Assembly: GCF_004366795.1 (NCBI RefSeq)
Contig: NZ_SORF01000005.1
Coordinates: 62,001 to 126,000 of the forward strand
Direction of reading: 5' to 3'
Source: Alicyclobacillus sacchari
Lineage (GTDB): Bacteria > Bacillota > Bacilli > Alicyclobacillales > Alicyclobacillaceae
DNA: 64,000 nt
This document shows positions 35,323 through 60,155 of the stretch, one piece after another (positions within the stretch are counted from its first letter, which is position 1; each line of letters begins with the position of its first letter). Below the pieces are notes generated by a model. It was not told the origin of the DNA. It saw only the letters and a list, made by a program, of their open reading frames with translations, and ran no database searches. A program made the position numbers and the translations under genes.

Positions 35323-36672
35323 ATCACGAGCCCTTGTGCGGCAAGGGTTTTTCGAGCACAAAGAAGGACTTCACCCCAACTTGAGAGAAAGAAAATGGTA
35401 TCCACTAAACCATTTCTACGGGGGCGAAGTCCAATGTGTACATTCGACAAACATGGCTCTTTTCCTTTGACGAATGGATGGAAATTGACCCTTCGGAGCG
35501 GCGTGAGCGTTTTTTCTCCGCGCTCGATCTGAGCCAGTATGCGGCGAAGTTGAGAAGTTTGACACCCCAAGGGGCCAAGCCCATCTCTCGCGAAGCCATC
35601 TTGCACGCATTTCTCGCGGCACCTCTTGAAGGGATCTCGACCCTTACGCAGCTTCACCGACGTTTGGAGAGTGATTTGCGCTTTCGTTACCAGTGCGGCT
35701 TCTCCCTTCACGAATCGGTTCCGTCCGTCTCGACTCTAAGCCGCGTCTTTCAGGCCATCGTCGACAAAGGGGTTGCGGAGACACGATTTGCCGAGTTGGT
35801 TCGTCAATGCCGTGACGAAGGGCTCATCGAGGGCGAGCACGTCGCCATCGACAGCACGGCGATCCATGCGTATGAGCAGAAACACCCACGCTCAGGTGTC
35901 CAGCCCTCCAATCGGGCCAACTGGGGCGCGAAGTTCGATGCCTTTGGCAACAGGCTGGCGTGGTTTGGCTACAAGGTCCATTTAGCCGTCGATGCGAAAA
36001 GTGAACTTCCTATGGCGCTCACGGTGACGCCAGCGAACGTCTACGATGGAGAGATGGCCATTCCACTCATGGAAGAGCTTCATCACCACGACTGGCGGAT
36101 TCGCTTCGTGTTGATGGATGCAGGATACGACCAGACGAAAAACTATGAAGCCGCTCGAGCATTGGGCGCTCAGGCTATCATCCCGATGAATCGCCGGAAT
36201 GAGAAAGAGCCGCCGGAAGGGATGGATTTCGACGGCACGCCCCGCTGCACGATGGGGTACCGAATGACGTATTGGGGCGCAGAGGGCGACTAGCTCAAGT
36301 TTCGCTGTCCGCACGCGACAGGCCAGGTCGATTGCCCGCTTGGCATGGCTGCCTGTTCCGCGTCGAATTACGGTATGGTCGTGAAGAAGCGCCTCGACGA
36401 GGACGTCCGTCGATACGCGAATCCGCATCGCGGTTCTCGCACATGGAAGAGCTTTACGATGAACGGACCGCTGTAGAGCGCTGTTTTGCACGGCTGGAAG
36501 AGTGGATGACGCTTGACGGCGTGCATGTGCGGGGTATCGAGAAAGTCACCGTACATGCGTACATCCACGCGATTGTGCTCTTGGCATCTGCTCTGGCGAT
36601 GCACCGGACGAATCGCATCGAGCAAGTGGCTTAACCTGATGATTCGAATGAACACCACCGAAGGGGCGTGAT
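35323..36672. mobile_element. Decayed insertion sequence
   Basis: The remnant surrounds a broken DDE transposase. Candidate imperfect terminal repeats are ATCACG-AG-CCCTT at the left (from 35323) and the reverse complement ATCACG-CCCCTT at the right (ending 36672). No target duplication was found, so the ends are approximate. Confidence 0.55.
35436..36634 (+). pseudogene. DDE transposase (DUF772/IS5-IS1182-like), broken by a stop and a frameshift
   Basis: The N-terminal DUF772-like region (LRFRYQCGFSLHE, then PSVSTLSR) and the first two catalytic aspartates (HVAIDSTAIH and VLMDAGYD) are read in one frame. It meets TAG at 36291-36293. The frame then continues as transposase-like sequence (CPHATGQVDCPLGMAACSAS) to about 36420. 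The end with the catalytic Glu (ERTAVERCFARLEEWM) is in another frame up to 36634. At least one nonsense change and one frameshift are therefore present, and the element should not transpose by itself. The start is probably GTG 35436. Confidence 0.85.
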
Positions 36673-55922: not shown

Positions 55923-56264
55923 TTACCACCATAACCCCCAGAGAACATAGATAATCAAAAATGATGCAGCCCAACGGCCCCATCCCCAACCCCAGCCGCC
56001 ATAACCTGCACCGTATCCGCCACGGCCGTAGGCGGGATAGCCGCCTGCACCATAACCACCCCAGGCCAACGCAACATCCAAACGCTTGAGCTCATCTGAA
56101 TCAAGCGTTTCACTCGCCAGTTGCGGCGGAATATACTTTCTCGGCGATAAAATGATTGCCTGATCCTTTGTCACGCGCTCAATGATTCCCTCGTGATAGC
56201 CATAGGGTGTCGTAAAGCGTACATATTGTCCAACGTGGTGTAAACACTCTGTTCTCGAACACAT
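55923..56264 (-). CDS. Gly/Trp/Tyr-rich probable sporulation protein, copy 1
   Basis: The 113-residue protein has three parts. A globular N-terminus contains CSRTEC, YGYHEGIIERVT and IILSPRKYIP. A glycine-tyrosine-tryptophan tract (GGYGAGGYPAYGRGGYG, then GGWGWGWG) follows, and a C-terminal hydrophobic helix (RWAASFLIIYVLWGLWW) ends it. I know no named family for the whole. A clear paralogue is encoded at 59239. It follows a YjcZ-like mini-protein gene by 97 bp. AGGGGG lies eight bases before ATG 56264. Coat or spore-envelope location is inferred from the neighbours and composition. Confidence 0.7.
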   Translation of the reverse strand: MCSRTECLHHVGQYVRFTTPYGYHEGIIERVTKDQAIILSPRKYIPPQLASETLDSDELKRLDVALAWGGYGAGGYPAYGRGGYGAGYGGWGWGWGRWAASFLIIYVLWGLWW

Positions 56265-56361
56265 GCAGATTCCCCCTGTGCCGCAACACGGATTTTGAAA
56301 ATCCCACCATTCGTCCGGCGTCCATTAGTAAACTGGCGTTGTCGTGCAGGTTGTCGTGTAG

Positions 56362-56451
56362 TTACGGCACGAACAACATAAATAGGACAAAGATAATGAG
56401 AAATACCACTGCCCAACGCGTGTAACCGCCCAGCGCCCCACCGTCGTACAT
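56362..56451 (-). CDS. YjcZ-like sporulation mini-protein, copy 1 (truncated by frameshift)
   Basis: A 29-residue frame starts at ATG 56451 with AGGAGGGG six bases upstream: a short Gly/Tyr start (MYDGGALGGYT), then RWAVVFLIIFVLFMLFVP. It resembles YjcZ-family proteins, which are tiny hydrophobic sporulation products. Copy 2 continues with NYVTTCTTTPVY after the last proline. Here one extra T makes TAA, while the matching tail (NYTTTCTTTPVY) is still readable in another frame to 56325. The tail loss is therefore recent. Confidence 0.7.
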   Translation of the reverse strand: MYDGGALGGYTRWAVVFLIIFVLFMLFVP

Positions 56452-56772
56452 TTGCTTCCCCTCCTGGCGTGCCCATTGTAAAAGCCGGATCGAATCTGAG
56501 CGAGTGATTGAGCGTAGCACAAGTCGTTAACGTGGGCCTATCCAACCTGGCCCACTCCACAAATGGCCTGCCCAATGAGCTTCGGAAGAGTGCAAAATCC
56601 TCCTTCCCCTTTCCCAGCATGATGTACAAGTATGAACACATTGGATCGTTTGCAGCGGTGTTTGCCGCCTGGGCACTCGCACATCTCCTCAAGGATCGCA
56701 TCGTACAATCTTTGCCTTCGAATTTTGACGTTCTATCTGCACATCTATCCGACGCTCGGTTTGAAAGGGGAT

Positions 56773-56781
56773 CATACACTA
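56773..56781 (+). promoter_or_regulatory. Sigma-E/K-like -10 element
   Basis: CATACACTA fits the sporulation -10 patterns CATACAnT (sigma-E) and CATAnnnTA (sigma-K). It lies about 25 bp before the ribosome site of the 56804 gene. The -35 region is not convincing. Confidence 0.4.
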
Positions 56782-56803
56782 CTCTGAGGTCCTGGAGGTG
56801 ATG

Positions 56804-57376
56804 ATGTTGAACATTGGAATGCTGTTTCGATGGGGCTCTGTCATCATGAATATGGTGCAAGACCCAAATATCCATTTGTTAGCTCGAGGCGCATGGACCG
56901 GGATACGCAAACTCCGGGGATCTGTGGATCCGGCAGTGCCGCCCAGAGCAATGAGCGGAACACCCAATACGTCTGGAACACAAGGACTTCCATATGGTCT
57001 GGGTAACCCCCCGATCTCCGATCGAATGTCCAACTGGGGTAGTTCCGGCGGAGCCATCATAGGTCCAAAAAGCCCTATTGAAACAAGGCCAAACGAAGCC
57101 GACATCGGACGGATGCTTCAAGATCCAAGGGTGCAACGTTTCCTACGCGAAAATCCTCAGATGCGTCGCGTGATCGAGGAAACCTACAAACGGCCAAAGA
57201 AAGGGCAACGAGAAGGCAAATTGATGCCGAAGTTGTTCAGCAAACCGCGGCGAGCGGAATCGCCTGACGAGCGGTTAGATGGACAATTCCCTTTCCCGTG
57301 GATGCAACACACACCAACGCTTCCGGGAAACAGACGACGGCAAGCCGACTCACCGCTACGAGGTCGTAGGCTGTAA
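56804..57376 (+). CDS. Hypothetical protein, 190 aa, probable sporulation locus
   Basis: The protein has no recognised domain. The N-terminus is mildly hydrophobic (NIGMLFRWGSVIMNMVQDP) and the middle is Gly/Pro/Ser-rich and likely disordered. A helical block follows (DIGRMLQDPRVQRFLRENPQMRRVIEETYKRP), then a basic C-terminus (RRRQADSPLRGRRL). Several start codons overlap (GTG 56798, ATG 56801, ATG 56804, TTG 56807) behind GGAGG; I took 56804. It lies 38 bp before the first SGNH hydrolase gene, and a sporulation-type -10 box precedes it. Confidence 0.6.
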   Translation: MLNIGMLFRWGSVIMNMVQDPNIHLLARGAWTGIRKLRGSVDPAVPPRAMSGTPNTSGTQGLPYGLGNPPISDRMSNWGSSGGAIIGPKSPIETRPNEADIGRMLQDPRVQRFLRENPQMRRVIEETYKRPKKGQREGKLMPKLFSKPRRAESPDERLDGQFPFPWMQHTPTLPGNRRRQADSPLRGRRL

Positions 57377-57414
57377 TTTCCAACTGGAAATCCTTCTGGT
57401 AAGGGGGGTGCGGC

Positions 57415-58098
57415 ATGAGACGAAACCTCTACATCGCATTAGGGGACTCCATCACCGCCGGATATGGTGCCAACCATCCTCATGCGACCTTTGTCTATCA
57501 GGTCTCGCGATTTGCACGCGAAAAGGGTATTGCCGACCGCACCATGATCGTGGCCCAAAATGGATGGACGAGCAAGGATATCTGGCGGGCCGTCAACCTC
57601 ATGGGCGACCTGATCTGGAAACAAACAAATGTCGTCACGCTGATGGCAGGTGGAAATGACTTACGACGGCTTTTGCGACGGTTGTATCTTCCTGTATCGG
57701 GTCCAATCATCACGCCAGGCCTGATTGAGCATGTTCGTGCACAATTCGCCCATCACATGAACTTGTTATGCCATTTTATCCAACTGCGGAATGTACCCTA
57801 TGTAACTGTCGCGACAGTGTACAATCCTGTACCGCACGTTCCAATCGCAGCCGACGCTTTCCAGAAGCTCAATACCACCATACGACACCTGGCCAATCAC
57901 TACGGGTTTACAGTCAGCGATGTGTTCACGGAATTTCAAAACCAGGAATCCCAATTGATTGAAGGTTATCGAAATGGGGTGTTCGAGGACCTCATTTCTC
58001 CGTTTCGCCGCCCCATTCACCCAAATCGGGCAGGACATGCGCGAATTGCCAATACCATAACAAAATCTTTGCGTAGTTTGGTTCCGCCTGCGGGATAA
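57415..58098 (+). CDS. SGNH/GDSL-family hydrolase, catalytic copy
   Basis: The 227-residue protein is a GDSL-type esterase/lipase. The nucleophile Ser12 is in ALGDSITAGYG, the oxyanion Asn81 in AGGND, and the catalytic His202 in PIHPNRAGH. The usual Asp three residues before the histidine is Arg here, so activity may rest on a Ser-His pair. No signal peptide is seen. GGGGGG lies close before ATG 57415. B. subtilis has related spore hydrolases (LipC), which fits the sporulation surroundings. Confidence 0.85.
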   Translation: MRRNLYIALGDSITAGYGANHPHATFVYQVSRFAREKGIADRTMIVAQNGWTSKDIWRAVNLMGDLIWKQTNVVTLMAGGNDLRRLLRRLYLPVSGPIITPGLIEHVRAQFAHHMNLLCHFIQLRNVPYVTVATVYNPVPHVPIAADAFQKLNTTIRHLANHYGFTVSDVFTEFQNQESQLIEGYRNGVFEDLISPFRRPIHPNRAGHARIANTITKSLRSLVPPAG

Positions 58099-58146
58099 CA
58101 CTCTGCGTGCCACTGGCGCTGTTACATAGACAAGGGGATGAACTCT

Positions 58147-58884
58147 ATGACAAGAAACATCTATCTGGCGATTGGAGACGGCATCACGGCCGGGCAAGGA
58201 GCCAGTCACCCGAATCTCGGATTCGTCCAGCATGTAAGCAAATATCTACAAGATCAATCACTCACACAGCGCACTGTAATGATTGCCTTTCCAGGTCTTA
58301 CAGCCAAAAGATTATTTCAAGTCGTATCGACACTCAGGCCCAATCTTTGGGACGACGTGAATGCCATCACGATTTGTTTTGGGAGCGCAGACCTGCTTCG
58401 CCTTCTACGCCCAGCGGTTCGCCGTATGAATACGCATGCTCGGCCACCGCGGAGCATATTGAAGTTGGCAGACGAATTTGGTTATCATACCGATCAGCTA
58501 TTCCGGTTAATCCGCGAGAAAGATGTACCCTACGCGTTTGTCACGACCTTGTATAACCCCCTGCCTGCGTTTGCATCGGCCGGTGATCTGGTCGAAGGAA
58601 TGAACAACATCATTTGCGATTGCGCTGACTACTATAAACTCCCTGTGGTCGACCTGGAAAAGGGATTTGCAAACAACGAGGCTTTTCTCATTGACGGGTA
58701 TCGCACGGGTAGCGCCTTGGACTTGATGAATCCTTTACGCAAGCCAGTTCTGCCGAACAACGCAGGGCACAAGCTAATTGCGCATCTGATCACCCAGAAA
58801 ATTCATCTCCGACTGACCAGGAGACCAAATCGAAAGGCCGGACTCAGTCGCCCCCGGAAACTCCGCAGGCGTGGAACCATGTAA
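58147..58884 (+). CDS. SGNH-fold pseudoenzyme (paralogue of 57415 gene)
   Basis: The 245-residue paralogue aligns with the preceding gene without gaps through residue 202, but every catalytic position is changed. Ser12 is Gly (AIGDGITAGQG), Asn81 is Ala (FGSADLL) and His202 is Leu (PVLPNNAGH). The surrounding fold residues are kept, and there are no stops, so it is not simply decaying. A basic tail (RRPNRKAG, RPRKLRRRGTM) is added. ATG 58147 lies nine bases after AAGGGG. A structural or partner role is inferred. Confidence 0.82.
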   Translation: MTRNIYLAIGDGITAGQGASHPNLGFVQHVSKYLQDQSLTQRTVMIAFPGLTAKRLFQVVSTLRPNLWDDVNAITICFGSADLLRLLRPAVRRMNTHARPPRSILKLADEFGYHTDQLFRLIREKDVPYAFVTTLYNPLPAFASAGDLVEGMNNIICDCADYYKLPVVDLEKGFANNEAFLIDGYRTGSALDLMNPLRKPVLPNNAGHKLIAHLITQKIHLRLTRRPNRKAGLSRPRKLRRRGTM

Positions 58885-59238
58885 TTTCGAAGACGGGCTC
58901 AAGCCGAAGATGGTTCCAATCGCCATCTGTTCCATTCCAGGTTACATAGGACTATGGACCCTTCATATGGCACATGAAATGCTTTACCGTGACATGCGCC
59001 ACTCCGATTTGCGCCACGTTTGTCCAGGCATTTTGCCTCTGTTGATGACTTGAAAAGCGGATTGGCTACACGGCGTCTACCACACCATGTAGCCATTCGA
59101 CGAGATTCCGTTATCCGTTTTCGGGTTTCTCCACCACACGACGTGATCGAACGTGAACCAAGCCAGGATGTGAAGGGTAACGAGCCTAGACTCAAGATGC
59201 CAAATGCTGCGGCAAGCTGAAATCGGGGCATTGCATCG
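58885..59238. other. Intergenic region without a supported gene
   Basis: About 354 bp lies between converging genes. A 60-residue plus frame (58871-59053) overlaps the end of the SGNH paralogue and lacks a ribosome site. No clear terminator or repeat was seen. Confidence 0.4.
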
Positions 59239-59577
59239 TTACCACCACCAGCCGGCCAACCCCCACAAAACATAAATGATAAGGAAGGAAACCGCCCAGC
59301 GGCCCCAACCCCAACCCCAGCCGCCATAGCCGGCGCCCCAACCGCCGTATCCGGCTCCTGGCGCCCCGCCCCACTGAGCCAGGGCGAGATCCAGCCTTTG
59401 TAACTCATCGTCACTGACGTTGGCACTGGCGAATTCCGTGGGGATATATTTGCGTGGCGACAGAATGACGGCCGAATCATGGGTCACTCGTTCGACGAAC
59501 CCGACATGATAGCCATATTTTGTCCGAAACCCAACCATCTTCCCCACATACCGCTCACAATCCGCTTTCGTACACAC
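59239..59577 (-). CDS. Gly/Trp/Tyr-rich probable sporulation protein, copy 2
   Basis: The 112-residue paralogue of the 55923 gene has the same order: CTKADC, YGYHVGFVERVT, ILSPRKYIP, a glycine tract (GGAPGAGYGGWGAGYGGWG), and the terminal helix RWAVSFLIIYVLWGLAGWWW. The frame is open to 59640, but GTG 59577 follows AGGAGG at seven bases and makes the N-terminus (MCTKADC) match copy 1 (MCSRTEC). It lies 66 bp after the second YjcZ-like gene. The terminal helix shares RWA-x2-FLII-[YF]-VL with the mini-proteins. Confidence 0.75.
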   Translation of the reverse strand: MCTKADCERYVGKMVGFRTKYGYHVGFVERVTHDSAVILSPRKYIPTEFASANVSDDELQRLDLALAQWGGAPGAGYGGWGAGYGGWGWGWGRWAVSFLIIYVLWGLAGWWW

Positions 59578-59643
59578 GTCTATACCTCCTTCGCTCTCAG
59601 CTTGTTTCACAAATGGCTCAGTCGACGATCGCGAAGCCACTCA

Positions 59644-59763
59644 TCAGTACACCGGTGTTGTGGTGCAAGTCGTAACATAGTTTGGAACAAGGAGGAAGAA
59701 CAAGACGAAGATAATGAGAAACACAACTGCCCATCTCGTATATCCACCAAATGCACCGTACAT
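59644..59763 (-). CDS. YjcZ-like sporulation mini-protein, copy 2 (full length)
   Basis: The 39-residue product starts at ATG 59763 behind AAAGGGG: MYGAFGGYT, then RWAVVFLIIFVLFFLLVP, then NYVTTCTTTPVY. It is the intact form of the gene at 56362. YjcZ-family proteins are made late in sporulation and associate with spore layers. It is encoded directly upstream of the Gly/Trp-rich protein, as in copy 1. Confidence 0.75.
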   Translation of the reverse strand: MYGAFGGYTRWAVVFLIIFVLFFLLVPNYVTTCTTTPVY

Positions 59764-60155
59764 GTGTCACACCCCTTTCACTTGCGACATGCTTTACGTT
59801 ACGTACTTTCACCTGTTCGACGCGATTGGCAACTGTCTGAACAAGCATGCCTATTTTCGTTGAAATCCCTGGTAGTCAAAATAACCGTCACACCGTGGAT
59901 ACCTTGATTCTGAAGCCGCCGATTCGCCGATACCCGCGTCCTGTCGAACGGGCGCATCGCGTGTTCTACCGAGTCTTGTGATGAAAGGCTACGCCATCTT
60001 TACGTCAGTTTTTACCGTGAGGCCCGGGAGACGTGTCATGGCCCAAAGATGGAAGGGGCGCTGGTCAACTCGTGAGGAATTCGACGCAACTCGGCATGTT
60101 CCAAATGGCTGACGATCGTGGATAACTTGTGACCCTGGCACTCCCAGCTTTCGTA
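59764..60155. other. Intergenic region without a supported gene
   Basis: The stretch holds the upstream region of the mini-protein operon and nothing I can call up to the mqo terminator. No sporulation-type -10 box as clear as the one at 56773 was found. Confidence 0.4.

Follow-up and report, generated by a model that had tools for sequence, protein, structure and literature searches.

Paired genes for tiny single-helix proteins and helix-ended S proteins in Alicyclobacillus sacchari, and their link to sporulation

Two gene pairs on the minus strand

The DNA examined here, which we refer to as the window, is a 64,000-nucleotide stretch of contig NZ_SORF01000005.1 of Alicyclobacillus sacchari. 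Its minus strand carries two gene pairs, as an earlier, sequence-only reading had described, each composed of a very short gene (mini) followed by a longer one (S). The gene mini2 (59644..59763, minus strand) encodes a 39-amino-acid protein, MYGAFGGYTRWAVVFLIIFVLFFLLVPNYVTTCTTTPVY, that has one predicted membrane helix and relatives detectable by HMM. S2 (59239..59577, minus strand) starts at a GTG codon with the ribosome site AAGGAGG ahead of it, and encodes 112 amino acids consisting of an N-terminal SPRKYIP domain, a Gly/Tyr/Trp tract and a C-terminal mini-like helix, RWAVSFLIIYVLWGLAGWWW (59242..59301, minus strand). In the second pair, mini1 (56362..56451, minus strand) encodes the 29-amino-acid protein MYDGGALGGYTRWAVVFLIIFVLFMLFVP, and S1 (55923..56264, minus strand) encodes a protein of 113 amino acids that has the same architecture as S2, is 53% identical to it, and ends in the mini-like helix RWAASFLIIYVLWGLWW (55926..55976, minus strand). 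S2 and the product of the neighbouring mqo gene are 95-97% identical to their counterparts in A. hesperidum and A. tengchongensis.

Three plus-strand genes separate the two modules. A 192-amino-acid protein to which no family is assigned (56798..57376) recurs in A. hesperidum, A. tengchongensis and two Alicyclobacillus MAGs, and is followed by two SGNH/GDSL hydrolases (57415..58098 and 58138..58884) that are 37% identical to one another, the first being of a kind that recurs beside S genes of type A (see below). Elsewhere in the window (35436-36634), two overlapping plus-strand frames resemble a single frameshifted transposase gene.

The sequence-only reading gave the mini proteins a length of 29-39 amino acids. 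Both open reading frames are indeed present, but the lower figure reflects truncation of mini1 by a one-base insertion. The mini1 counterparts in A. hesperidum and A. tengchongensis are 41 amino acids long and end in ...LLVP(S/Y)YTTTCTTTPVY, with TTTCTTTPVY as the C-terminus, whereas in the window an extra base at 56362-56364 (GTGCCG-T-AAC) creates a TAA stop. The remnant of the tail, NYTTTCTTTPVY followed by a stop, is still open in the +1 frame (56325..56363, minus strand). We take the insertion to be a recent event that truncated the gene; as the genome is a 66-contig draft, it could also be an assembly error or, with less likelihood, mark a programmed frameshift.

The helix RWAxxFLII[FY]VL is common to mini and S of both pairs. 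When a 16-member mini alignment was compared with the S C-termini by hhalign, the score was 44.8, against 10.4 +/- 3.0 when the hydrophobic columns were permuted, and none of 100 permutations reached the observed value. The resemblance of the two helices that the sequence-only reading had noticed is therefore beyond chance and beyond what composition explains. The accompanying remark that four copies of one segment occur in under 4 kb holds as a description of local density, but genome-wide there are 14 mini paralogues in 2.95 Mb, and a third S homologue is located on another contig.

Two conserved families in the Bacilli

Matches to mini were found in 59 of 399 Bacilli genomes, including all of the sampled Alicyclobacillales. 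Strong positives number 55 and carry from about 4 to 18 or more minis apiece; four other genomes with weak single-copy matches were not counted as strong. The family consensus is FGGYTRWAVVFLIIFVLFxLLVP, and its 21-residue core is almost invariant. Because the 98 distinct 63-nucleotide DNA versions of the core yield only 18 distinct peptides, with 92% of codon differences synonymous, the core is under strong purifying selection at the protein level across the whole helix. The tail TTxPVY is frequent in minis that adjoin S genes, while solitary minis usually have Gly/Ala/Tyr tails. The minis matched no Pfam or NCBIfam model above the cut-off, and a literature search on tiny proteins of this type yielded nothing useful beyond YjcZ/SscA. 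The sole annotated record that we found is plasmid unnamed2 of A. fastidiosus (NZ_CP104069.1), on which one S gene, another S-like gene and six or more minis lie next to a transposase; here RefSeq labels the annotated S and mini genes hypothetical, and several minis have no annotation. In a further Bacilli family, a 123-amino-acid protein (G362:C1:196261) has an unrelated N-terminus to which a mini-like helix, GSYTRWSAAFLLLFILFVLF, is fused as the C-terminal end, so that this helix may be an anchoring module put to repeated use.

S proteins are encoded in 38 of 41 Alicyclobacillales genomes and fall into type A, whose end is a helix like that of mini (RWAVSFLIIYVLWGL), and type B, with the C-terminus WWWWWLAFAWIFWLAFLW; relatives farther out in the Bacilli retain the head and a hydrophobic end. 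A mini gene lies on the same strand no more than 250 nucleotides upstream of 30 of the 59 distinct S genes, for which the chance expectation is well below 1% at roughly 15 minis per genome. The pair, on the conservation of which the sequence-only reading had staked its proposal, is therefore kept at about half of S genes. Two SGNH genes lie between the window modules, and in at least seven loci such genes recur next to a type-A S gene. The SGNH fold is also that of LipC. LipC is a coat protein of B. subtilis (PMC3533761), an analogy that is suggestive only of a link between the SGNH neighbours and the coat. Two further small S-like proteins are encoded in the A. sacchari genome (G000:C1:5500-8200 and G000:C4:22500-25200), with C-termini of the FWPFFF/APWW type and AIPLAAILGITAIGMHWW.

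No Pfam or NCBIfam model matched S1 or S2 above the cut-off, and the window S heads did not match GerQ (PF09671), DUF2642 (PF10842) or LSM (PF01423). Divergent S relatives gave matches to Sm/LSM, DUF2642, DUF2187 and GerQ, which are small beta-rich domains, but all of these matches are below the curated cut-offs; on this basis a small beta-barrel is a lead for the S head and not a result. GerQ is a coat protein. To our knowledge, none of GerQ, DUF2642, DUF2187 or Sm/LSM has a Gly/Tyr/Trp tract together with a mini-like helix. In the AlphaFold model of S2, a first helix is followed by three strands and a second helix; the Gly/Trp stretch (68-89) is disordered, and the C-terminus forms another helix (89-110). 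The mean pLDDT of the model is 58, rising to about 77 in helix 89-110 and reaching only 55-69 in the head. Searching the PDB with the S2 model by Foldseek gave no significant match, nor did a PDB sequence search with the S profile give any. Given the weak model and insignificant Foldseek matches, we claim no fold for S.

Association with SpoIVA and a CATA-type promoter

If mini and S belong to sporulation, as the sequence-only reading suggested, they should be found in endospore formers. SpoIVA is present in 265 of the 399 Bacilli genomes, and cross-tabulation by hand of three genome lists placed it in 58 of the 59 genomes with mini and 75 of the 76 with S, counts that are not phylogenetically independent and are inflated by phylogenetic clustering. 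The single SpoIVA-negative exception, G334, is listed as 97% complete. Both families are therefore nearly confined to SpoIVA-bearing genomes.

A second line of evidence comes from the DNA upstream of the genes. We trained a 40-nucleotide promoter matrix on minis only, in which an ACC block lies 26 nucleotides upstream of CATA and TGNA follows, and counted scores above 8 in 97 non-redundant mini upstream regions by leave-one-out, with 177 control genes. Matches at about -40 were obtained for 51% of minis versus 1.7% of controls and 0.4% of shuffled sequences. Similarly, CATANNNT occurs at -50 to -32 in 28 of 97 minis versus 6 of 177 controls, and clusters upstream of minis at -36 to -45. When the mini-trained matrix was applied to S genes, 14 of 29 without an upstream mini scored, as opposed to 1 of 30 with a mini (Fisher p = 6e-5); a promoter present at solitary S genes and absent from those behind a mini fits co-transcription of mini and S. 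The CATA-type signal at a fixed distance, of the kind used in the mother cell, and the co-occurrence with SpoIVA both support the link to sporulation.

CATA -10 elements belong to the sigma-E/sigma-K class. Many mini sites have AC 20 nucleotides before CATA, as for sigma-K, and the conserved ACC block, 26 nucleotides before CATA, is about 5 nucleotides upstream of the textbook sigma-K -35 position. Two yardsticks were tried: the gerP family, for sigma-K, is scarcely found in Alicyclobacillales, and sigma-E and sigma-K could not be cleanly told apart from the upstream regions of spoIVA. The CATA-type promoter is a feature of about half of the mini family for which sigma-K and sigma-E are not separable, and the window copies score low, at -2.3 (mini2) and -4.2. 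A weak -10-like element, CGTAACGT (59796..59803, minus strand), is located at the expected place about 40 nucleotides upstream of mini2, the copy scoring -2.3, and is identical in A. hesperidum and A. tengchongensis. With such low scores for the window minis, the case for regulation has to be made from their relatives.

A putative mother-cell membrane system

The sequence-only reading called the mini proteins YjcZ-like. The description fits as an analogy, in that minis are tiny, have a Gly/Tyr-rich end and one conserved hydrophobic helix, and the two profiles align by hhalign with a score of 29.4 (12.8 +/- 2.8 for permuted hydrophobic columns, 0 of 100 reaching it) and a probability of 89%, a comparison in which 22 columns of one helix cannot tell homology from convergence. 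However, the YjcZ_2 HMM (PF09680) has no match in the whole A. sacchari genome, and neither the window minis nor 16 family members matched YjcZ_2 / tiny_TM_bacill above the curated cut-off. YjcZ_2 was detected in 130 of the 399 Bacilli genomes and in none of the 55 strong mini-positive genomes, a mutual exclusion with a naive hypergeometric probability of 5e-11 that ignores phylogeny. As YjcZ is a tiny protein under sigma-K control, this distribution is a third line of support for the link to sporulation. Given this likeness and distribution in the absence of YjcZ_2 matches, we regard the minis as lying outside YjcZ_2 itself but next to YjcZ, to which they would be analogous or remotely related. 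The parallels with YjcZ/SscA (YhzE; PF09680, TIGR01732) include a length of 25-60 amino acids, Gly/Tyr-rich ends, a single near-invariant hydrophobic helix, many copies per genome and occurrence in spore-formers. The motifs differ, FALIVVLFILLIIVG in YjcZ versus the consensus given above for mini, and many minis, unlike YjcZ/SscA, have as partner an S gene bearing the same helix. The yjcZ gene of B. subtilis has been placed in the sigma-K regulon (PMC517825).

A further parallel is SpoVM, which is very short, as is mini, a putative mother-cell protein. SpoVM is an amphipathic helix, unlike the hydrophobic helix of membrane-spanning length in mini, and the likeness is one of description. SpoVM, a product of the mother cell, ties the assembly of the coat to the forespore membrane (PMC3533761).

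We think it probable, though far from certain, that mini and S are sporulation-specific, mother-cell membrane or coat-anchoring proteins that are expressed from a CATA-type promoter and do a YjcZ/SscA-type job. Both would be made in the mother cell from a promoter of the sigma-E/sigma-K class, most likely sigma-K. Mini would be a tiny single-pass membrane protein with the role of the YjcZ/SscA-type proteins of Bacillus, and S, usually co-expressed with it from one promoter, would have a small beta-rich head (perhaps SH3/Sm-like), a flexible Gly/Tyr/Trp tether and nearly the same helix. The helices of mini and S would pack together after entering one membrane, most probably the outer membrane of the forespore, leaving the S heads to form a membrane-attached layer as a base for coat assembly. 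Judged from its sequence, a single hydrophobic helix would suit the outer forespore membrane at least as well as the spore surface, where the sequence-only reading had placed it. The Alicyclobacillaceae lack both SafA and SpoVID, and their coats, few proteins of which have been identified, are believed to be put together in another way (PMC3533761); consequently, a substitute anchoring route may be needed. It is a speculative extension, which we hold as doubtful, that in Alicyclobacillales and a few other Bacilli the shared helix zips minis and SH3/Sm-headed proteins together in the outer forespore membrane, replacing both YjcZ and the missing SafA/SpoVID route. Points against the mother-cell anchoring proposal are the low promoter scores of the window minis, the position of the ACC block, the weak AlphaFold model and the truncation of mini1, from which at least one mini copy would be losing constraint.

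Three other explanations bear consideration. The proteins could themselves be building material of the coat or of the spore surface, their helices and Gly/Tyr/Trp tracts forming an insoluble polymer layer instead of entering a membrane, which comes close to the self-assembly proposed in the sequence-only reading. The tract of S is conserved in kind though its sequence varies, mini tails are Thr/Cys/Tyr- or Gly/Tyr-rich, and the copy number of minis is high, as would be anticipated for structural proteins. Nevertheless, the most conserved part is the hydrophobic helix, which is long enough to span a membrane, and not the low-complexity tract, and we regard this explanation as rather unlikely. 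It is less likely still that mini and S are general envelope or acid-stress membrane proteins of thermoacidophilic spore-formers with no role in sporulation: the names of many members point to acidophiles or thermophiles, and the neighbours of solitary minis are unrelated metabolic genes, but minis are preceded by a CATA-type and not a sigma-A promoter (TATAAT is found in 0 of 97 mini upstream regions) and their distribution tracks SpoIVA. Finally, the small size and single helix of the minis, and the dispersal of their numerous copies, of which some cluster on a plasmid, recall the hydrophobic toxins of type I toxin-antitoxin pairs spread as selfish minigenes, a highly improbable identity given the strong purifying selection on the whole helix, the conserved pairing with S and the promoter common to mini and solitary S genes.

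Alicyclobacillus is an acid- and heat-loving spore-former whose spores spoil acidic juices and survive pasteurisation. The two so far unnamed protein families and a testable promoter are now available for work on these spores. Furthermore, the YjcZ-type tiny proteins have a counterpart in the minis, and as the two exclude each other in their distribution, there is a hint that some such membrane peptide is needed by many spore-forming Bacilli.

Outside the window, the A. sacchari genome contains a sigK-like gene (G000:C4:81292-84452) that is divided into two collinear halves by an insert of about 2.5 kb, a very small skin-type element with one gene for a large serine recombinase and another for a DedA-like protein. 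In A. acidoterrestris, a 105-kb prophage is integrated in sigK (PMC13141910). A second sigK-like gene of A. sacchari (C5:212858-213529) is intact.
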